Positions 51,992-59,765 of a stretch of DNA of 64,000 bases are shown piece by piece. How positions within the stretch are numbered: position 1 is the first letter of the stretch; each line of letters opens with the position of its first letter. The stretch is from positions 1 to 64,000 of the forward strand of contig JAHECO010000007.1 in NCBI GenBank assembly GCA_024641705.1, in the 5' to 3' direction. The notes under the pieces were generated by a model that worked only from the letters and a program-made list of their open reading frames with translations, was not told the DNA's origin and made no database searches. The position numbers and the translations under genes were made by a program. The stretch is from Candidatus Kryptoniota bacterium (GTDB taxonomy: Bacteria; Bacteroidota; Ignavibacteria; Kryptoniales; JAKASW01).

Positions 51992-52483
51992 ATGAAGAAG
52001 CTAATGTTAATCGCAGCGATGGTTCTCGGCTTTGCCGGCATGTCCTTCGCGCAGATGAGCGGATCTCAGGTCATCAACGTCGACGTGAGCATACTGCACG
52101 CGCTCACAATAACGACTTACTCCAACGCAAATTTCGGAACGACCTACGCCGGTGTGGGCTCGGACACGTTGAATCCTGTCAGTCCGGCAACCGGTCAGAC
52201 CGCCGGCACGTTCGTAGTCAACGGTGAGCCGGGACACGCCATCAACGTAAGCTATACATCTACAAGCCCGTCAGTGACCGGTGCGACTGTGACGTATGCG
52301 CCATCGCTTGTCGGTTTGAATGCAAACACGCAGGCATCCGCGGGCACGCTTGGTGCCAGCGTCAATCTTGACGGCTCGACCGGCAACTTCTACTTCTGGG
52401 TCGGCGGCGTCCTGAACGGTATTACCTCCGGCGCGGTAAGCGGGACCTATAGCGGCACTTTCACTCTTTCCGTCGCTTACTAG
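51992..52483 (+). CDS. DUF4402-type surface subunit 1 (probable major subunit)
   Basis: 163 residues from ATG 51992 (strong AGGAGG). Signal peptide ending GMSFA|QM, then one small beta-sandwich domain: ANFGTTYAG, TAGTFVVNGEPGHAINVSYT, NFYFWVGG and the terminal GTYSGTFTLSVAY. These are DUF4402 features (N-terminal 'FG' strand, hydrophobic GG strand, C-terminal YSGTF strand ending in Tyr). Such proteins are encoded next to chaperone-usher genes in other bacteria and are thought to be pilin-like subunits. It has its own strong ribosome site and its own terminator, as expected for the most abundant subunit. Confidence 0.82.
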   Translation: MKKLMLIAAMVLGFAGMSFAQMSGSQVINVDVSILHALTITTYSNANFGTTYAGVGSDTLNPVSPATGQTAGTFVVNGEPGHAINVSYTSTSPSVTGATVTYAPSLVGLNANTQASAGTLGASVNLDGSTGNFYFWVGGVLNGITSGAVSGTYSGTFTLSVAY

Positions 52484-52540
52484 TGAGGTCTGAGGTGTTT
52501 TTCCGGTGATCCGTTTTTCATATAACAATTCGGCGGAGGG

Positions 52541-52577
52541 AGAAGGCTTAGCAAGAGTGCTGAGCCTTCTGTTTGTT
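52541..52577 (+). terminator. Strong terminator after subunit 1
   Basis: AGAAGGCTTAGCA and TGCTGAGCCTTCT form a 13-base stem (one G-T pair) with a four-base loop, followed by GTTTGTT. It lies between the first and second DUF4402 genes. Confidence 0.85.
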
Positions 52578-52581
52578 AGCG

Positions 52582-52617
52582 GCTCCGCGAGCGCCCGTGC
52601 GCAGCGCTCAACGGAGC
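52582..52617 (+). repeat. Second hairpin downstream of the terminator
   Basis: GCTCCG-c-GAGCGC pairs with GCGCTC-aa-CGGAGC across a short loop. It immediately precedes the leader of the next subunit gene and may shape its mRNA. Confidence 0.5.
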
Positions 52618-52629
52618 GGGCGGTGAAGG

Positions 52630-53253
52630 TTGTACGTGAACTTAAAGTCAGATAATAACATGCAGATGAATGACCTGCACAACATATCGACAACTTATGC
52701 GGTCTCCCGCGGAACGCGTGGCGGTCCGGGACGTCGGCACCGTGGGTTTCCGCCGGCTTTCGTCCTTGCGTTCTGTGTCGTGCTTAACTCGAGGCTTCTC
52801 GCGCAATCGAACGTCGCCCAAACTCGCTCCGGTTCTTTCGGTGTTGCGGTAGGGATATCACTGTGTCTGACAAGGACAATGAATTTCGGCATAATTGTTC
52901 CCGGGAGCGGAGTCCATTCCGTAGGCTTGACTGACACCTCGGCGGCTAAACTTACGATATCGGGACGATGGAACAGTACCGTCTCTGTCACACTTGTTCC
53001 GCCGCCGGCGCTCGTGAACGGAGGATATGCTATGTCCTACGCAGCGGGGGCGGCTTTTAACAATTCGGCGGATGACCCGGCGGAAGCGACCGCTTGGGCC
53101 TCTCCGGGCGGAACACAGGCGCGTTTCAAACTTCACGCAGCCCGAATCGGCCAGTCGGCGCGGGCTTTCATATATCTATTTGGGTCCATAGATGTTGCGG
53201 CTCTGCCTCCAGGAACATACAGCGGTACCTATGTTGTAAGCGTATCATATTGA
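52630..53253 (+). CDS. DUF4402-type surface subunit 2
   Basis: Up to 207 residues; starts at TTG 52630, ATG 52660 or ATG 52666 are all possible and none has a strong ribosome site. A long basic N-region (RGTRGGPGRRHRG) precedes the hydrophobic core PAFVLAFCVVLNSRLLAQ, an unusual long export signal. The domain shows MNFGIIVPGSG, AKLTISGRW, FIYLFGSIDV and the end GTYSGTYVVSVSY, the DUF4402 pattern. Likely a minor or adaptor subunit of the same structure. Confidence 0.72.
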   Translation: MYVNLKSDNNMQMNDLHNISTTYAVSRGTRGGPGRRHRGFPPAFVLAFCVVLNSRLLAQSNVAQTRSGSFGVAVGISLCLTRTMNFGIIVPGSGVHSVGLTDTSAAKLTISGRWNSTVSVTLVPPPALVNGGYAMSYAAGAAFNNSADDPAEATAWASPGGTQARFKLHAARIGQSARAFIYLFGSIDVAALPPGTYSGTYVVSVSY

Positions 53254-53314
53254 GAAGGAAATTATTAATGAATCTTGTTTCACGATTTAGTAAGTTCACT
53301 CTGAGGTATTATTA

Positions 53315-54232
53315 ATGAAGAAACATCTTCGGATGGTAATATCGTTGTTCTTGATGCTTTTCGGTGCAGATCAAGCTGTGGCCCAGTATTCTACTATCAC
53401 GGTCACGCAGGGGCTTTCGTTCGGCACAAACATAACAGGTACGACTACCCTTGCTTATACCAGCCCGGGTGCGGCGGCATTTCAGGTGGCTTTTCCGAAT
53501 TACAGCCAGGCGGCAACGCTGTCGCTGACTTTCATCCTTCCGAGTAATCTGACCGATGCGGCGGGCGATAACCTGCCCATTTCTTTCGCGACTAATTCCG
53601 CCGCTTACCACGTCAACGTGAACAGCACTGCCGGTGCAACGGCTTTCAATCCGAATAACGGGCTTAACGGGACGCTGGGCCAGACCGCCCACGTCGATTA
53701 TTTCTGGCTCGGAGGGACCGTCACACCCGGCAACAACTACATCGCTTCGGATTATTCCGGCACGATTACCATCGTGTCCGACATCGTGGTCGGCACCCAG
53801 CACTATACGTCGACGGAGACGATTACCGTTACGGCAACCTTGCTCGGAAATATTTCAATCTCCGCGACAGGGGCGCTGGATTTCGGTCTGGTGGTGGCGG
53901 GAACGACGCCTCCCTCCCTGAGTGCCCTGGCGGGCGGCGCGCCGCAGTTTATCGCCACCGGCGTAAGGAACAACAGGAGTATCGTCACATTTTCGAGTAC
54001 CTCGACTTTGAACGACGGGTACGGCAATACGCTGACTTTCACTCCGAGCCTGTACGGTTCTGCGACGAATAGTCAGGCCGGATCGCAGCCGATTACGTCC
54101 GGCACGACTCTGAGCCCCGGCCGCCGGAATACCAATTACTACTTCTGGCTGGGCGGGTCCCTGGCTCCGGTGCCAACCGGCCAGCCTCCGGGTTCTTACA
54201 GCGGCGTCTTCATTCTCACAGTGGTACGCTAA
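53315..54232 (+). CDS. Two-domain DUF4402-like surface protein (possible tip subunit)
   Basis: 305 residues. Signal peptide ending DQAVA|QY. The second half (185-305) is a clear DUF4402-type domain (ALDFGLVVAGTTPP, NYYFWLGGSL, GSYSGVFILTVVR). The first half (20-180) has a similar layout (LSFGTNITGTT, VDYFWLGGTV, DYSGTITIVSDI), so the protein is a tandem of two related domains. In classical pili the two-domain subunit is the tip adhesin; this parallel is inferred. 40 bases before the chaperone gene. Confidence 0.78.
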   Translation: MKKHLRMVISLFLMLFGADQAVAQYSTITVTQGLSFGTNITGTTTLAYTSPGAAAFQVAFPNYSQAATLSLTFILPSNLTDAAGDNLPISFATNSAAYHVNVNSTAGATAFNPNNGLNGTLGQTAHVDYFWLGGTVTPGNNYIASDYSGTITIVSDIVVGTQHYTSTETITVTATLLGNISISATGALDFGLVVAGTTPPSLSALAGGAPQFIATGVRNNRSIVTFSSTSTLNDGYGNTLTFTPSLYGSATNSQAGSQPITSGTTLSPGRRNTNYYFWLGGSLAPVPTGQPPGSYSGVFILTVVR

Positions 54233-54271
54233 GAGATTGGGATGGAACTTTAGATTAGTTAAATTACGGCC

Positions 54272-55093
54272 ATGAGAAAAACACTAACCGCGTTGCTGAT
54301 CCTGTTGTCCGTAACAGTGGCTCGGGCGCAGGTCATTGTTGCACCGACGATCCTCTTCATGAGCGATCAGTCGCGTTTCGGCACTTTCATAGTCATGAAT
54401 CGGTCGAACACGCCGCAGGAAATTACGATATCTTTCAGGTTTGGATTTCCTGAGTCGGACTCCCTTGGGAACATCAGGATGCAGTACGACGACAGCCTGA
54501 TGGCGAGCGCTCGCTCGTGCGAACCCTGGTTGAAGGGCTTCCCGCAGAAGTTCATAGTCAACCCGGGACAACAGCAGGTGGTTCGCCTGTTCGTGTCTGC
54601 TCCGGCAAACATACCCGACGGCGAGTACTGGACAAGGCTTGTCACGAGTTCGACCCCGCAGGCGAAAACGATCGACACTGTCAGGACGGGCATTACTGCA
54701 AACATCACGTTTGTCCTTCAACAGGTTACCACCGTTATTTACAAAAAGGGCTACGTGAACGCGAGCGCGGAGATTCCGGAAATACGCGCTGTCCCCGACT
54801 CATCGTCGATAAACCTCCTCGTGCATGTTTCTCACGGCGGCAATTCGCCGTTCTTCGGAAAGATGTCGGCAGATGTCAAGGACCGCGCCGGAAACAGCGT
54901 GTACTCGGGACAGGAAGTCCTCGCGATTTACCCGAGCAGCATGGTCGTGAAGTTTGCGGTGCCGTTGTTGAAACTCCGCAGCGGCAAGTATACGGCGGAG
55001 CTGACCCTTGATTCCGATCGGAGCGACATCCCCGGAGAAGATCTCCTGAAGATACCGACGATCGAGAAGACGTTCTCTTTCGACGTTCCGTGA
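54272..55093 (+). CDS. PapD-like periplasmic chaperone
   Basis: 273 residues. Signal peptide ending VARA|QV. The N-terminal immunoglobulin-like domain follows the fimbrial-chaperone pattern: VAPTILFMSDQSRFGTFIVM, NRSNTPQEITISF, PWLKGFPQKFIVNPGQQQVV then RLFVSAPANIPDGEYWTRL. The last segment has the PDGEYW turn common in the FGL/alpha-type chaperones. A second beta domain follows. It would cap the DUF4402 subunits in the periplasm and pass them to the usher encoded next. Confidence 0.82.
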   Translation: MRKTLTALLILLSVTVARAQVIVAPTILFMSDQSRFGTFIVMNRSNTPQEITISFRFGFPESDSLGNIRMQYDDSLMASARSCEPWLKGFPQKFIVNPGQQQVVRLFVSAPANIPDGEYWTRLVTSSTPQAKTIDTVRTGITANITFVLQQVTTVIYKKGYVNASAEIPEIRAVPDSSSINLLVHVSHGGNSPFFGKMSADVKDRAGNSVYSGQEVLAIYPSSMVVKFAVPLLKLRSGKYTAELTLDSDRSDIPGEDLLKIPTIEKTFSFDVP

Positions 55094-55215
55094 CCGGTCT
55101 TCGAAATCCTGGTCGGTAGAGTTCTTAAAATATCCGTATTGAGTCTGTAGAAAGAAACACGCGGGAGTAACAAATCTGCGCACAAAGGTATTTCTGGGGA
55201 GGACTTTTAATTGCG

Positions 55216-58200
55216 TTGTTAGCCGTGTCCGGCAGAACGGCCGCGCAGGGAGTCCCGCCGAACTCCGAAACACAGGACATATACCTCTCCTTTAGTTACA
55301 GCGGGCTGGTAAACACGGTAGTGACCTCGCTTTACTACCGTGACTCTGTCTACATTCCCATAAGTGCCGTCTTCAAACAGCTGAGGGTCGACCAGACCGT
55401 CGACATGAGTTCGAAAACGCTCAGTGGTTTTTACATAAAACCTTCGGACAAGTACGAAATCAATTTCGAATCGGGCGTGGCGCATATCCGTGGGGAGGAG
55501 ATCGACTTCGACACCTCAGCGGTGATCATAGGGCAGCTGGACTTCTATGTCCTCCCATCCTTCTTCGACAAAGTGTTCGGCCTCAACCTCAACGTCGATT
55601 TCAACTCGCTGTCATTAGTGCTCAATACCGACCAGATGCTTCCGATTGTTCAGGATTACGATAGATCCATGCGCAGAAACTACGCTTTGGTTTCTCCGGA
55701 CCAGAACATCATTCAAGCCCCGCTCGGTTATCCGCGGCATCGCTCCTTGTTGAACGGGGGAATACTGGATTACTCCCTCTCCGCATACAGCGGGGGGGGC
55801 CAGTTGGCCTACAACTACGGATTCACCGGAGGTGCCGAAATCCTCGGCGGGGAAACCGAAGGGTCTCTTCTTGGGTCGGTCGCGCGGGGCGGAGCAAGCA
55901 TCAACTCCAGCACTATCTCATGGAAGTACGCTTTTGATTCGACCGGCTACATCACATACGCGGGGCTCGGGAACCTCTACTCAAACGGTTTGAACCAGTA
56001 CGGTTTTCGAGGTGCTCAGGTGACGAACGAGCCGCTCACCGTCAGGACTCTCTTCGGGAAGTATCAAATACAGGCGAGTACAAATCCCGGATGGGACGTC
56101 GAACTCTATCTCAACGGCCAGCTTGTCGGCTACAGGAAAGCCGATGCCAGGGGGCGCGCCGAATTTTCCATTCCGCTGGTTTATGGGACTTCATTTATCC
56201 AGCTGAAATATTACGGACCGAACGGCGAGTTTTACGAGAGCGACCGGAGGCTGCAGATCCCGTTCACGTTCGTGCCGGCCGGGGAGGTGAATTACACATT
56301 CAGCGCGGGGAAGGTCAGCAATACCGACTACAATTTCCTTTCCGGAAACGTCGTTTTCGGCCTTTCCGACTGGATGAGCGACAAGATCGGAATGGATTAC
56401 GTGGAGAGCCCGTTCTTTTCCAGGCCTCTCTATTACAATTCGCTTTACCTTCGCTTCGGACCGGAGTACATGCTGAGCATCGACGCCGCGCCTTCCGCAT
56501 TTTACAGGTCGACGTTCAATGCGTTGTATGCCTCGCAGGCCGCTTTCGACGTGTCGTACTCCCGGTACAGAGAGAATCTGCTCTACAATCCAAGTCTTAA
56601 ACTCCAGGAACTACAGGCCGACGCCTACATGCCATTCGATGTCGGCGGGAACGCCTTTAACTTCAGGCTGGCAGGCGGCGGTCAGGAATATACCAGCGGA
56701 CAGAAATCGTACAGCTACTCCGGTTACCTTTCGGCCAGCCTCTTGCAGCTCAACGCTTCGATTGGCTATCTGAGATCGATAATAGACTATGGGGGAGGAG
56801 GAAAAATCCAGAGCTACAGCTTCACAGGTACGTTACTCTACTCTCTCTTCTTTCAGCAGGGGGCATTTGATTTTCTGAACGGCACGCTGATAAATGCGAC
56901 AGGGAGATACGGCGTCCTCAAGAATTCTCTGGATGATATATTGCTCCAACTTTCCAAGAACGTGCAACGATACATCCGAGTGGCAGTCTCGGCCGAGCGG
57001 GATTTCATCAACAGGTCGACGAATTTCAACCTGCAAATAATAGCCGATCTGCCGTTCGCACGCTCGACCACAAACGCGCAGCTCCAGAACGGCGCCGGGT
57101 GGTACACGGAAAACGTCAGCGGGTCGATAGGCTTCGACGACAACTACGGACGTTTTCTCTTCAACAATCTTCAGTGGGTCGGACACTCTGCCGCATCAAT
57201 GCGGATGTTCATCGATGCCAACGGAGACGGGAAATACGATGACGGGGAGGAAGTGGTCAAGAGTGGTGACATCACTCTGAGACAGGCCGTCGCGTCCGAA
57301 ACATCGAGTGACGGCATTATAAGAGAATGGAATCTTCTTCCCTATACTCAATACAGCGCCGACGTGGACCTGAGCTCGATCAGGAACCCACTGTGGATTC
57401 CAAAGCGGAAGGCGTTCTCCTTCATCACCGACCCGGACTCCTACAAGCAGATTGACGTTCCCTTCTTTGTCGGCGGTGTTGTGGAGGGGTCCGTGCTGCG
57501 GCAGCAGGGCAGCAACCTCAGCGCAATAGCAGGTCTTACCCTGGATATCAGATCCGTCACTGACAGCCTTAGAGCAACAGTGGCAATATTCAACGACGGC
57601 AGCTTCTACTATATGGGTCTGCCGCCGGGGCAATACAAAGCAAGTGTCGATTCGGCACAGCTTGCAATCCTCGGAGTTTATTCCGATCCCTCGGTCCTTG
57701 ACTTCACTGTGAAGCCGACTAAGAACGGCGACTTCGTGGAAGGGCTGAAAATTGTTTTGAAGAACAAGGGGCAAGTAGCGACTCCGGAGGTGCAACGACC
57801 AAAGGTTGTTCCGCCGCCTGTTGCCGGGCCTGAGAGGTTCGTTGTCCAACTAGGTGCCTTCACCACACCGGACCGGGCAGCGAAGCTGGCAAAATGGGCA
57901 CGGATCACCACCGGCCAAATCTTGGTGTCGAGATTCAACCCGAGGTCCCACCTATACGTGGTCCAGACCGATACATTTGACACGAAGGCCACTGCGTTGT
58001 ACAGGCTGGATATCTTCATGAACAGGTTCGGATTCTTTGATGCGTTTGTGTGCTCGACTCTCGACACTGCATCACATTATCTCTTCTCCGTCCAGCTTGC
58101 GGCTTTTCAATCTGTGGGGAAAGCGAGGGCCTTCACAGCGAGGTTGGAAGCAAAAACGGGAGTGTCCTCCGCCGTCCAATTCAAGCGATCTACACGGCTC

Positions 58201-58557
58201 TTCTCGGTAATGGCGGGTCCGTTCAAGTCCGAGCCGGAAGCTCAGAATCTTATGGACCGGCTGAAAAAGAGGTGGGATTGCCGCAACGCATTCGTCGTTA
58301 TAAACGGTGAGGGCGATCTCCCTCGCATGTATGTGATCAATCTTGGAGCCTTCAGGAATGAATATCAGGCGACTTGGCTGGCGAATTCATTCCGCTGGCG
58401 CACCGGAATCATCGCTTTCGTCGGTTTCGATAGCGAAACAATGGAATTCAGGGTGTTCACTTCAAGCTTCAGGACGAGCCAGGAGGCTGAGTCGACTATG
58501 GAGAAGATCAAATCGTTCGGGACTTATAGCTCTGCCAGACTGATCTCAATTCCGTGA
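55216..58557 (+). CDS. Usher-like outer-membrane protein with three C-terminal SPOR repeats
   Basis: 1,113 residues from the first conventional start (TTG 55216), but the hydrophobic part of the signal peptide lies upstream in the same frame (YFWGGLLIALL), so the true start is earlier (see findings). A periplasmic N-domain (about 10-150) leads to a beta-barrel region with an internal plug-like domain (WDVELYLNGQLVGYRKAD, FIQLKYYGPNGEFYESDRRL) as in ushers. Then comes a calcium-loop-like MFIDANGDGKYDDGEEV with a carboxypeptidase-regulatory-like domain, and three SPOR-type repeats (FVVQLGAFTTPDRA, FSVQLAAFQSVGKA, YVINLGAFRNEYQA). SPOR domains bind denuded peptidoglycan glycan strands. It would form the export pore for the subunits. 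Confidence 0.78.
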   Translation: MLAVSGRTAAQGVPPNSETQDIYLSFSYSGLVNTVVTSLYYRDSVYIPISAVFKQLRVDQTVDMSSKTLSGFYIKPSDKYEINFESGVAHIRGEEIDFDTSAVIIGQLDFYVLPSFFDKVFGLNLNVDFNSLSLVLNTDQMLPIVQDYDRSMRRNYALVSPDQNIIQAPLGYPRHRSLLNGGILDYSLSAYSGGGQLAYNYGFTGGAEILGGETEGSLLGSVARGGASINSSTISWKYAFDSTGYITYAGLGNLYSNGLNQYGFRGAQVTNEPLTVRTLFGKYQIQASTNPGWDVELYLNGQLVGYRKADARGRAEFSIPLVYGTSFIQLKYYGPNGEFYESDRRLQIPFTFVPAGEVNYTFSAGKVSNTDYNFLSGNVVFGLSDWMSDKIGMDYVESPFFSRPLYYNSLYLRFGPEYMLSIDAAPSAFYRSTFNALYASQAAFDVSYSRYRENLLYNPSLKLQELQADAYMPFDVGGNAFNFRLAGGGQEYTSGQKSYSYSGYLSASLLQLNASIGYLRSIIDYGGGGKIQSYSFTGTLLYSLFFQQGAFDFLNGTLINATGRYGVLKNSLDDILLQLSKNVQRYIRVAVSAERDFINRSTNFNLQIIADLPFARSTTNAQLQNGAGWYTENVSGSIGFDDNYGRFLFNNLQWVGHSAASMRMFIDANGDGKYDDGEEVVKSGDITLRQAVASETSSDGIIREWNLLPYTQYSADVDLSSIRNPLWIPKRKAFSFITDPDSYKQIDVPFFVGGVVEGSVLRQQGSNLSAIAGLTLDIRSVTDSLRATVAIFNDGSFYYMGLPPGQYKASVDSAQLAILGVYSDPSVLDFTVKPTKNGDFVEGLKIVLKNKGQVATPEVQRPKVVPPPVAGPERFVVQLGAFTTPDRAAKLAKWARITTGQILVSRFNPRSHLYVVQTDTFDTKATALYRLDIFMNRFGFFDAFVCSTLDTASHYLFSVQLAAFQSVGKARAFTARLEAKTGVSSAVQFKRSTRLFSVMAGPFKSEPEAQNLMDRLKKRWDCRNAFVVINGEGDLPRMYVINLGAFRNEYQATWLANSFRWRTGIIAFVGFDSETMEFRVFTSSFRTSQEAESTMEKIKSFGTYSSARLISIP

Positions 58558-58628
58558 TCCCACCCCCCTAAAACGACCGGGAATAGCCGTTTCTGGTCCC
58601 CAAACTTAAGTACTTCTTTCCTTAAAAT

Positions 58629-58643
58629 CGGTAATTATTACCG
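58629..58643. promoter_or_regulatory. 15-base perfect palindrome upstream of the small secreted gene
   Basis: CGGTAAT-T-ATTACCG is perfectly symmetric and lies about 145 bases before ATG 58786, in a 230-base gap after the usher gene. An operator is likely by position; the binding factor is unknown. Confidence 0.4.
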
Positions 58644-58785
58644 CGTCTTGTCTCTTTCTCGGTTTGTCGGCGTGATCGGGTGTCAGTGTAAGCCGCGCTT
58701 CCACGGCATATTACGCGGATTCACTAAAAAGTTTCCGTCGTGATGATTTGTGGCATTGCCTTCGCAAGTAAGGTTGGTGAAGGCA

Positions 58786-59145
58786 ATGAAAAGAACAAAG
58801 AACATATTACTCCTCTTTCCGTTCATCGGAATCATGTCTCTCGCACCGACGACTCAAGCCCAGGTCACGGCGACGGCAAGAGTCGTTCTCACCGTTGTAC
58901 CGGCCCCCGGCATGAACTTCGCCCCCACACCCAAGCAGGCGAGTCAGCCTTTCGCCGCCGGGCAGATGAAAGCAACCGAGAGGAACGGAGTCGTGTTCCA
59001 GAGCACAGGGAATGTCATGGTCCAGTTGAACTCTACCGACGCCCGGAGCTCCAGGTTCAATTTTCAGCAAGGGGAGAGCCGCACCTTCACTTCCAATGAC
59101 CTCAAGAACGTCACCAGCGTCGAGATAGTTTATCTCGGAAGCTGA
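58786..59145 (+). CDS. Small secreted protein of the usher locus (DUF4402-like in part)
   Basis: 119 residues from ATG 58786. Signal peptide ending TTQA|QV. The first strand (ATARVVLTVVPAPGMNFAP) resembles the opening of DUF4402 domains, but the YSGTF C-terminal strand is absent; the end is VTSVEIVYLGS. It may be an anchor or terminator subunit, or an unrelated small periplasmic protein. Its own palindrome upstream suggests separate control. Confidence 0.62.
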   Translation: MKRTKNILLLFPFIGIMSLAPTTQAQVTATARVVLTVVPAPGMNFAPTPKQASQPFAAGQMKATERNGVVFQSTGNVMVQLNSTDARSSRFNFQQGESRTFTSNDLKNVTSVEIVYLGS

Positions 59146-59303: not shown

Positions 59304-59765
59304 ATGGATGAATTTGTGATGACATCGGACTTTTTCAGGGTTTTCGAGACCGTCAGGATCCCTCTCGTGATAACCGATTCCAATCTCCTTCTCGTGTATG
59401 CCAACCCGTTTGCGCGGGAAGTCCTGCCCCTCAGGTTGGAGAGAGGAAGAAAACTCGAAGTGGACGGTTTCTTGCAGCATGAAGACTCGATCGCTTTCGA
59501 GCACATGGTCGGTGAATGCAGGGAGCGTGGCGAAAGTCTCGGCACTCTGAAGCAGAGGGGGATAGACAAGTATTACAAAGTGAAAGCCTACTGTCTCAAG
59601 AACCGGGATGGCGAGATGGTTTTCCATTTTGAGGATGTTTCCCAGTCCCGCATACTTGAGAACCAGTTGTACGAGCACCTCGTAGATCTTTACAGTCAGC
59701 TCGAGACGCAGGAACGAGAGATAGCCGACCTTAAGGCTATACTTCTACGTTCGAGAGAATACTAA
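59304..59765 (+). CDS. PAS-domain protein with C-terminal coiled coil
   Basis: 153 residues from ATG 59304; the frame is open to a TTG at 59262. A PAS domain (FFRVFETVRIPLVITDSN, LLVYANPFAREVL, KVKAYCLKNRDGEMVFHFED) is followed by a heptad-like helix (ENQLYEHLVDLYSQLETQER). No output domain is attached, so it may signal by pairing with another protein. Its position after the usher locus could mean a regulatory link, which is not proven. Confidence 0.72.
   Translation: MDEFVMTSDFFRVFETVRIPLVITDSNLLLVYANPFAREVLPLRLERGRKLEVDGFLQHEDSIAFEHMVGECRERGESLGTLKQRGIDKYYKVKAYCLKNRDGEMVFHFEDVSQSRILENQLYEHLVDLYSQLETQEREIADLKAILLRSREY

Follow-up and report, generated by a model that had tools for sequence, protein, structure and literature searches.

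The locus described here probably codes for a chaperone-usher pathway whose usher belongs to an uncharacterised clade, and in which the assembly pore would be tied to the cell wall by a SPOR tail. It lies in a window of 64,000 nucleotides (the whole stretch of DNA that was analysed) from a Candidatus Kryptoniota bacterium, where six secreted proteins are encoded in a row on the + strand between positions 51992 and 59145. The original prediction, made from the letters only, had listed three DUF4402 proteins (one of them a tandem), a PapD-like chaperone and a usher-like barrel protein with a SPOR tail, all on one strand, and this parts list held. The features of the locus are as follows.

51992..52483, + strand: P0001, single-domain DUF4402 subunit, with signal peptide and N-terminal extension QMSGSQVINVDVSIL...
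52630..53253, + strand: P0002, single-domain DUF4402 subunit, the true start being inside the given open frame
53315..54232, + strand: P0003, tandem DUF4402 subunit, candidate tip subunit (Pfam, model and PDB matches)
54272..55093, + strand: PapD-like periplasmic chaperone (family profile against FimC-type chaperones, locus neighbourhood)
55163..55176, + strand: GGGAG Shine-Dalgarno-like sequence and probable AUC start of the usher (start codon 55174-55176)
55174..58557, + strand: usher-like outer-membrane protein with SPOR tail, 1,127 aa if ATC is the start
55270..55650, + strand: N-terminal periplasmic domain of the usher, Cu_amine_oxidN1-like fold (Pfam below cut-off, VIA-align, model)
55681..57195, + strand: predicted translocation barrel of the usher, colinear with the FimD barrel and plug
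~56056-56220, + strand: plug-like Ig domain of the usher, inserted in the barrel (FimD-type colinearity)
57193..57765, + strand: C-terminal domains of the usher, a region with the DANGDGKYDDGEE loop and PY..Y motif, then an SdrD_B/CarboxypepD_reg-like beta-sandwich
57838..58065, + strand: SPOR domain 1 (Pfam, local HMM, model)
58078..58314, + strand: SPOR domain 2 (best Pfam stretch, local HMM)
58327..58554, + strand: SPOR domain 3 (local HMM, VIA-align to the RlpA SPOR)
58786..59145, + strand: small secreted protein, donor-strand-like N-terminus (QVTATARVVLTVV) and conserved end VYLGS

Directly 3' of the locus, a PAS-domain-like protein is encoded at 59304-59765 and is kept in seven relatives; it could be a regulator.

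The usher shows no match to the Pfam usher family PF00577, nor does any protein of the whole source genome, and in a set of 15 diverse usher relatives only one matched (E 0.0034). Since the single sequence is not recognised by Pfam, its homology had to be established with a family profile. A profile of 70 relatives was thus set against one built from six K-12 ushers (FimD, SfmD, YehB, YraJ, ElfC and YbgQ). The profile-profile alignment gives P 99.1 and E 7.5e-19 over 585 columns in order, which run through the barrel, plug and C-terminal domains of FimD, and control K-12 profiles that were reversed, column-shuffled or block-shuffled reached a P of at most 3.5. By profile homology the large protein is a usher homologue of the FimD type; the full 24-strand barrel is inferred from the alignment. 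It is likely that this usher belongs to an uncharacterised clade outside PF00577. The DxN motif and the glycines of its C-terminal region are near invariant across the 70 relatives. Searched against PDB sequences, the usher profile matches only Ig domains of the SdrD, NOMO and Bap-like kinds, and single-sequence searches of the same set gave nothing useful for either the usher or the chaperone.

The N-terminal ~160 residues of the usher cannot be aligned to the N-domain of FimD. This region matches Pfam Cu_amine_oxidN1 below the cut-off (E 1.3e-4), and its model (pLDDT 70-85) is similar to the amine oxidase N-terminal domain with a VIA-align Z of about 9. An AlphaFold prediction of the full-length usher gave a mean pLDDT of 50.3 with the barrel below 50; the N-terminal, last C-terminal and SPOR domains are confident and the plug region moderate, while the barrel is unusable, since only ten close sequences were available as input. 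VIA-align also matched this model with chains of PapC and FimD (Z about 10, rmsd 5-29), but these matches were set aside, the barrel model being poor. Four usher homologues of other loci (L060, L061, L071 and L076) carry ~370-570 extra N-terminal residues before the usher domain.

The chaperone alone matches PapD_N weakly, with 15.2 bits for a cut-off of 23 (E 0.022), and PapD_N is detected in 16 of its 71 relatives. The family profile built from these 71 sequences matches FimC-type chaperones over the N-terminal domain (P 94.6, E 6.9e-8). Among sequences of solved structures its best match is to EfmWxLIP1, a WxL-interacting protein, and spans both Ig domains (E 4e-4), but this is a Gram-positive protein without a usher. 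Taken together, the FimC profile for the N-terminal domain and EfmWxLIP1 for both domains show a two-domain Ig chaperone encoded beside the usher. However, the cleft residues Arg8 and Lys112 of FimC and PapD are not conserved, the aligned positions being I (Arg in 15 of the 71) and T or P, and for this reason the chaperone was not filed as a classical FimC/PapD type.

All three subunits pass the Pfam cut-off for DUF4402 (PF14352, 25.2 bits), P0001 with 26.6, P0002 with 25.9 and P0003 with 29.7 bits. In P0003, Pfam detects the second domain only but the model shows both, and both are also seen in P0003 relatives by a local HMM; orthologues of P0002 are present in most loci of the genus. Common to the single-domain subunits are an N-terminal extension with alternating residues and the motif GxYxGxFxLxVxY at the C-terminus. 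In contrast, the first domain of P0003 starts directly with the fold, without such an extension, and what aligns with the extension of the single subunits is the linker between its two domains. In the P0003 model (pLDDT 92.9), this linker sits at the donor-strand position of domain 1. The top Foldseek matches of the model are the CfaB and CfaE pilin fusions and the CsuC-CsuE complex. Furthermore, residues 1-155, which comprise domain 1 and the linker, superpose in VIA-align on the CfaE pilin domain (Z 11.2), on self-complemented CsuA/B (Z 10.0) and on donor-strand-complemented EcpA (Z 9.6). When the whole model is superposed on two-subunit fusions, including CfaB-CfaB, VIA-align gives Z 9.5-11.1 with an rmsd of about 8, which may be due to the domain angles. 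The model predicts, with good likelihood, that domain 1 of P0003 is completed in cis by its own linker and that the subunits behave as incomplete Ig pilins needing a donor strand. Strand exchange between separate subunits is inferred, from sequence alone, from the N-terminal extension they share. P0003 fits a tip subunit, again by inference, because its first domain needs no partner.

Another reading of these subunits is that the barrel exports soluble Ig-like DUF4402 adhesins one by one, either released or kept, with no fibre being polymerised. In its favour, no fibre has been seen so far, the number of subunits varies, and orphan DUF4402 proteins exist away from ushers. Against it, donor-strand polymerisation requires just such features as the N-terminal extensions, the GxYxGxFxLxVxY motif and the cis-complemented tandem, and we regard singly exported adhesins as very unlikely compared with a polymerised fibre. 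The orphan DUF4402 proteins of the source genome are encoded on three other contigs (C57 7272-8188, C93 20341-20772 and C35 46233-46583), with no usher or chaperone match nearby.

The small protein at 58786-59145 has orthologues in eight loci, each immediately following the usher. As a further DUF4402 subunit it found no support (hhalign P 3.9). It could be an accessory, terminator or base subunit, its link to the subunits being merely suggestive.

The arrangement of the locus was examined in relatives, most of which are metagenome assemblies. The class yielded usher relatives in 69 of 294 genomes and the phylum in 90 of 395; the named relatives whose ushers are 56-75% identical are metagenome assemblies of Bacteroidetes. 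The chaperone gene lies in the same locus and on the same strand for 104 of 109 usher homologues, mostly directly adjacent. In loci of the genus, DUF4402 subunits precede the chaperone, in numbers that differ between loci, and the order DUF4402, chaperone, usher is also present on annotated plasmids of the Proteobacteria Polaromonas and Sphingopyxis. The homology of usher, chaperone and subunits is shown together with a conserved gene order.

The beginning of the usher gene is unusual in that no ATG, GTG or TTG is found at a plausible position before the core of the signal peptide. The likely start is an ATC at 55174: a GGGAG precedes it by six bases, and an in-frame TAA stands at 55168. Most relatives within the genus keep this ATC and the Shine-Dalgarno-like GGGAG, usually closely preceded by an in-frame stop (L041-L046, L049, L050), and the corresponding position is TTG in L047, CTG in L048 and ATG in L069. 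Judged from sequence alone, AUC looks like a weak non-canonical start, which might keep usher levels low. A different feature was observed in usher homologues of family f7 (L083, L084, L087, L091 and possibly L093), where a run of 9-10 T lies in the signal-peptide region. In L083, L084 and L087, an ATG overlapping the chaperone stop is out of frame with the usher body, and the two frames meet at the T run. Slippage or phase variation of the usher gene is one possible meaning of the f7 runs. Runs of 8-10 T also occur just 5' of the chaperone gene or near its start in families f43 (L113, L114, L116, L134, L142, L144 and L148) and f58 (L123 and L124), and could be terminators or slippage sites.

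At the other end of the usher, the three SPOR-like repeats that had been predicted are confirmed by Pfam, which finds SPOR (PF05036) in three stretches with E 9.8e-24 and 83.9 bits for a cut-off of 21. The model of SPOR 3 matches RlpA SPOR structures with VIA-align Z 10.2-10.4, including 6i09, which is bound to denuded glycan (Z 10.2), and SPOR 1 matches CwlC (Z 10.2). Only four proteins of the source genome contain SPOR, the usher among them.

This tail is not constant among relatives. A Pfam survey of usher tails of at least 60 residues (n=64) found SPOR in 38, OmpA in 12, LysM in 1 and TPR repeats in about ten. On a tree of 106 ushers, the tails are SPOR in 38, OmpA-C in 11, TPR in 9 and other types in 5, and 43 ushers have none. 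Their distribution requires 20 tail changes in all, 9 for SPOR alone and 4 for OmpA alone. The tree was computed with FastTree, tail excluded, and has some long branches, so these counts are approximate and gain cannot be distinguished from loss. SPOR and TPR tails alternate among close relatives, one usher family has SPOR together with LysM, and the usher of a Pseudoalteromonas plasmid also bears SPOR (Pfam E 6.7e-5). The tail has been repeatedly replaced among relatives at the same usher end. With 43 of 106 usher homologues tailless and 9 carrying TPR, a tether is not essential to the pathway. Within the genus, tails are shortened in L047, L049 and L050, by decay or assembly errors. In one locus (L133, genome G387), the usher tail combines one OmpA-like with two SPOR-like stretches.

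In SPOR domains, a Gln and three Arg mediate binding to denuded glycan, and this peptide-free ligand is enriched at the septal ring (PMC6895207). A real chaperone-usher system could thus use SPOR to direct its usher to new poles or sites of division, without any load on the tail. However, SPOR is swapped in relatives for OmpA-C, a reader of peptide stems throughout the sacculus, and LysM is added in others; septal placement does not predict these swaps, and three SPOR copies in a row fit avidity. We therefore consider septal placement unlikely. That three different peptidoglycan-binding folds are found at one periplasmic end favours general tethering over septum targeting, and this we hold to be the probable reading, peptidoglycan binding itself being inferred.

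The conservation of binding residues differs between the tail types. The Asp and Arg pair of OmpA binds diaminopimelate, and in the OmpA tails the matching Asp is kept in 91% and the Arg in 100%. The Gln equivalent to Q270 of RlpA is present in 60% of 99 SPOR tail domains and, in the window, in the first two repeats but not the third. The Arg cluster of RlpA has no conserved counterpart in the SPOR tail domains of ushers, the repeats of the window included. The poorly kept Arg residues of the glycan site speak for yet another explanation, in which the tail binds a protein partner (an envelope protein or wall synthase) and regulates or assembles the pore, with the TPR versions acting alike. Further points for it are that 9 of 106 tails are TPR, which usually bind proteins, that SPOR and TPR alternate in close relatives, and that the SPOR proteins DamX and DedD stimulate class A PBPs (PMC7642682). 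Against it, OmpA-C and LysM are classical wall binders and the OmpA tails retain their key residues. A protein partner is unlikely as the general explanation, though a protein-protein role stays conceivable, above all for TPR tails.

Under the preferred tethering reading, DUF4402 pilins would be secreted by Sec and then kept in the periplasm by the PapD-like chaperone, which would pass them to the usher, the N-terminal extension of each new subunit filling the groove of the preceding one. The tandem subunit, in which the linker completes domain 1 in cis, would be the first subunit of the fibre and form its tip. It is established that the C-terminal domains of FimD and PapC face the periplasm, and the usher tail could for this reason reach the wall. 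The periplasmic C-terminus with its three SPOR domains would grip the glycan strands of peptidoglycan, and the assembly pore and the fibre base would thereby be tied to the cell wall; in relatives, OmpA-C or LysM domains would take this tethering job. Donor-strand exchange between subunits, fibre formation, binding of the tail to peptidoglycan and load bearing are all inferences. A bolder reading, towards which we lean by a narrow margin, is that the usher clade, found in many Bacteroidota families and some Proteobacteria, repeatedly evolved wall tethers from interchangeable SPOR, OmpA-C and LysM modules, with the sacculus bearing the pull on the fibre.

The chaperone-usher reading of the original prediction is supported by the profile alignments, the conserved gene order and the subunit model. 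It would have been refuted by a gene order not conserved in relatives, by subunits without an open groove for strand exchange, or by a predicted structure without the barrel. The gene order held in relatives and on plasmids, and the groove and donor-strand test came out in its favour through the P0003 model and its matches to complemented pilins; the barrel, at a pLDDT below 50 with ten close sequences, is neither seen nor excluded. Anchoring to the wall by the usher's own tail, which had also been proposed, is still an inference, strengthened by the unrelated peptidoglycan-binding domains at the same position.

Compared with the classical FimD/FimC and PapC/PapD pili, the locus has the same order of chaperone then usher, colinear barrel, plug and C-terminal domains in the usher, an Ig-like chaperone, and a pilin fold completed by a donor strand. 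It differs by a usher that is not PF00577 and has another N-terminal domain and an SdrD_B-like last domain, by DUF4402 subunits, and by a chaperone without the FimC-type cleft Arg and Lys at the aligned positions. The K-12 ushers examined are of ordinary length (815-878 residues), which leaves no room for such a tail, and to our knowledge classical usher biology has no counterpart of such a wall-tethered pore. With the Csu, Ecp and CFA/I systems (archaic, alternative or class 5), the locus shares subunits whose P0003 model is closest to CfaE/CfaB, CsuA/B and EcpA, and a chaperone profile with a weak match to CfaA (E 0.054). The end of the usher also aligns weakly with EcpC, but the usher sequence is far from it (P 29) and EcpC has no wall-binding tail. 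A usher with an extra fused domain is known in the P-usher CupB3 of Pseudomonas aeruginosa (cited in PMC4793230); the POTRA domain added there serves to secrete a partner adhesin and not to bind the wall. The SPOR proteins RlpA, FtsN, DamX and CwlC are division proteins or wall hydrolases, whereas here SPOR ends an outer-membrane pore.

In the literature searched, which leaves out most subscription journals, DUF4402 is not mentioned, either alone or with a usher, and no on-topic paper, judged by titles and abstracts, links a usher to SPOR. The pathway itself is already known; the usher clade and its interchangeable wall-binding tails are probably new, as far as this literature goes. In mechanical terms it is an open question how a chaperone-usher pilus resists pulling when it is seated in a fluid outer membrane, and the natural set of ushers with no tail or with SPOR, OmpA, LysM or TPR makes it testable by swap or removal of domains. 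The original prediction had remarked that these organisms normally secrete by type IX, which is right for the source genome: with 116 Por_Secre_tail matches it is rich in type IX secretion cargo, so that two export routes coexist in this organism. The locus thus adds a surface-fibre assembly pathway to a phylum that usually receives attention for its type IX secretion, and the DUF4402 family gains a likely role as pilins.
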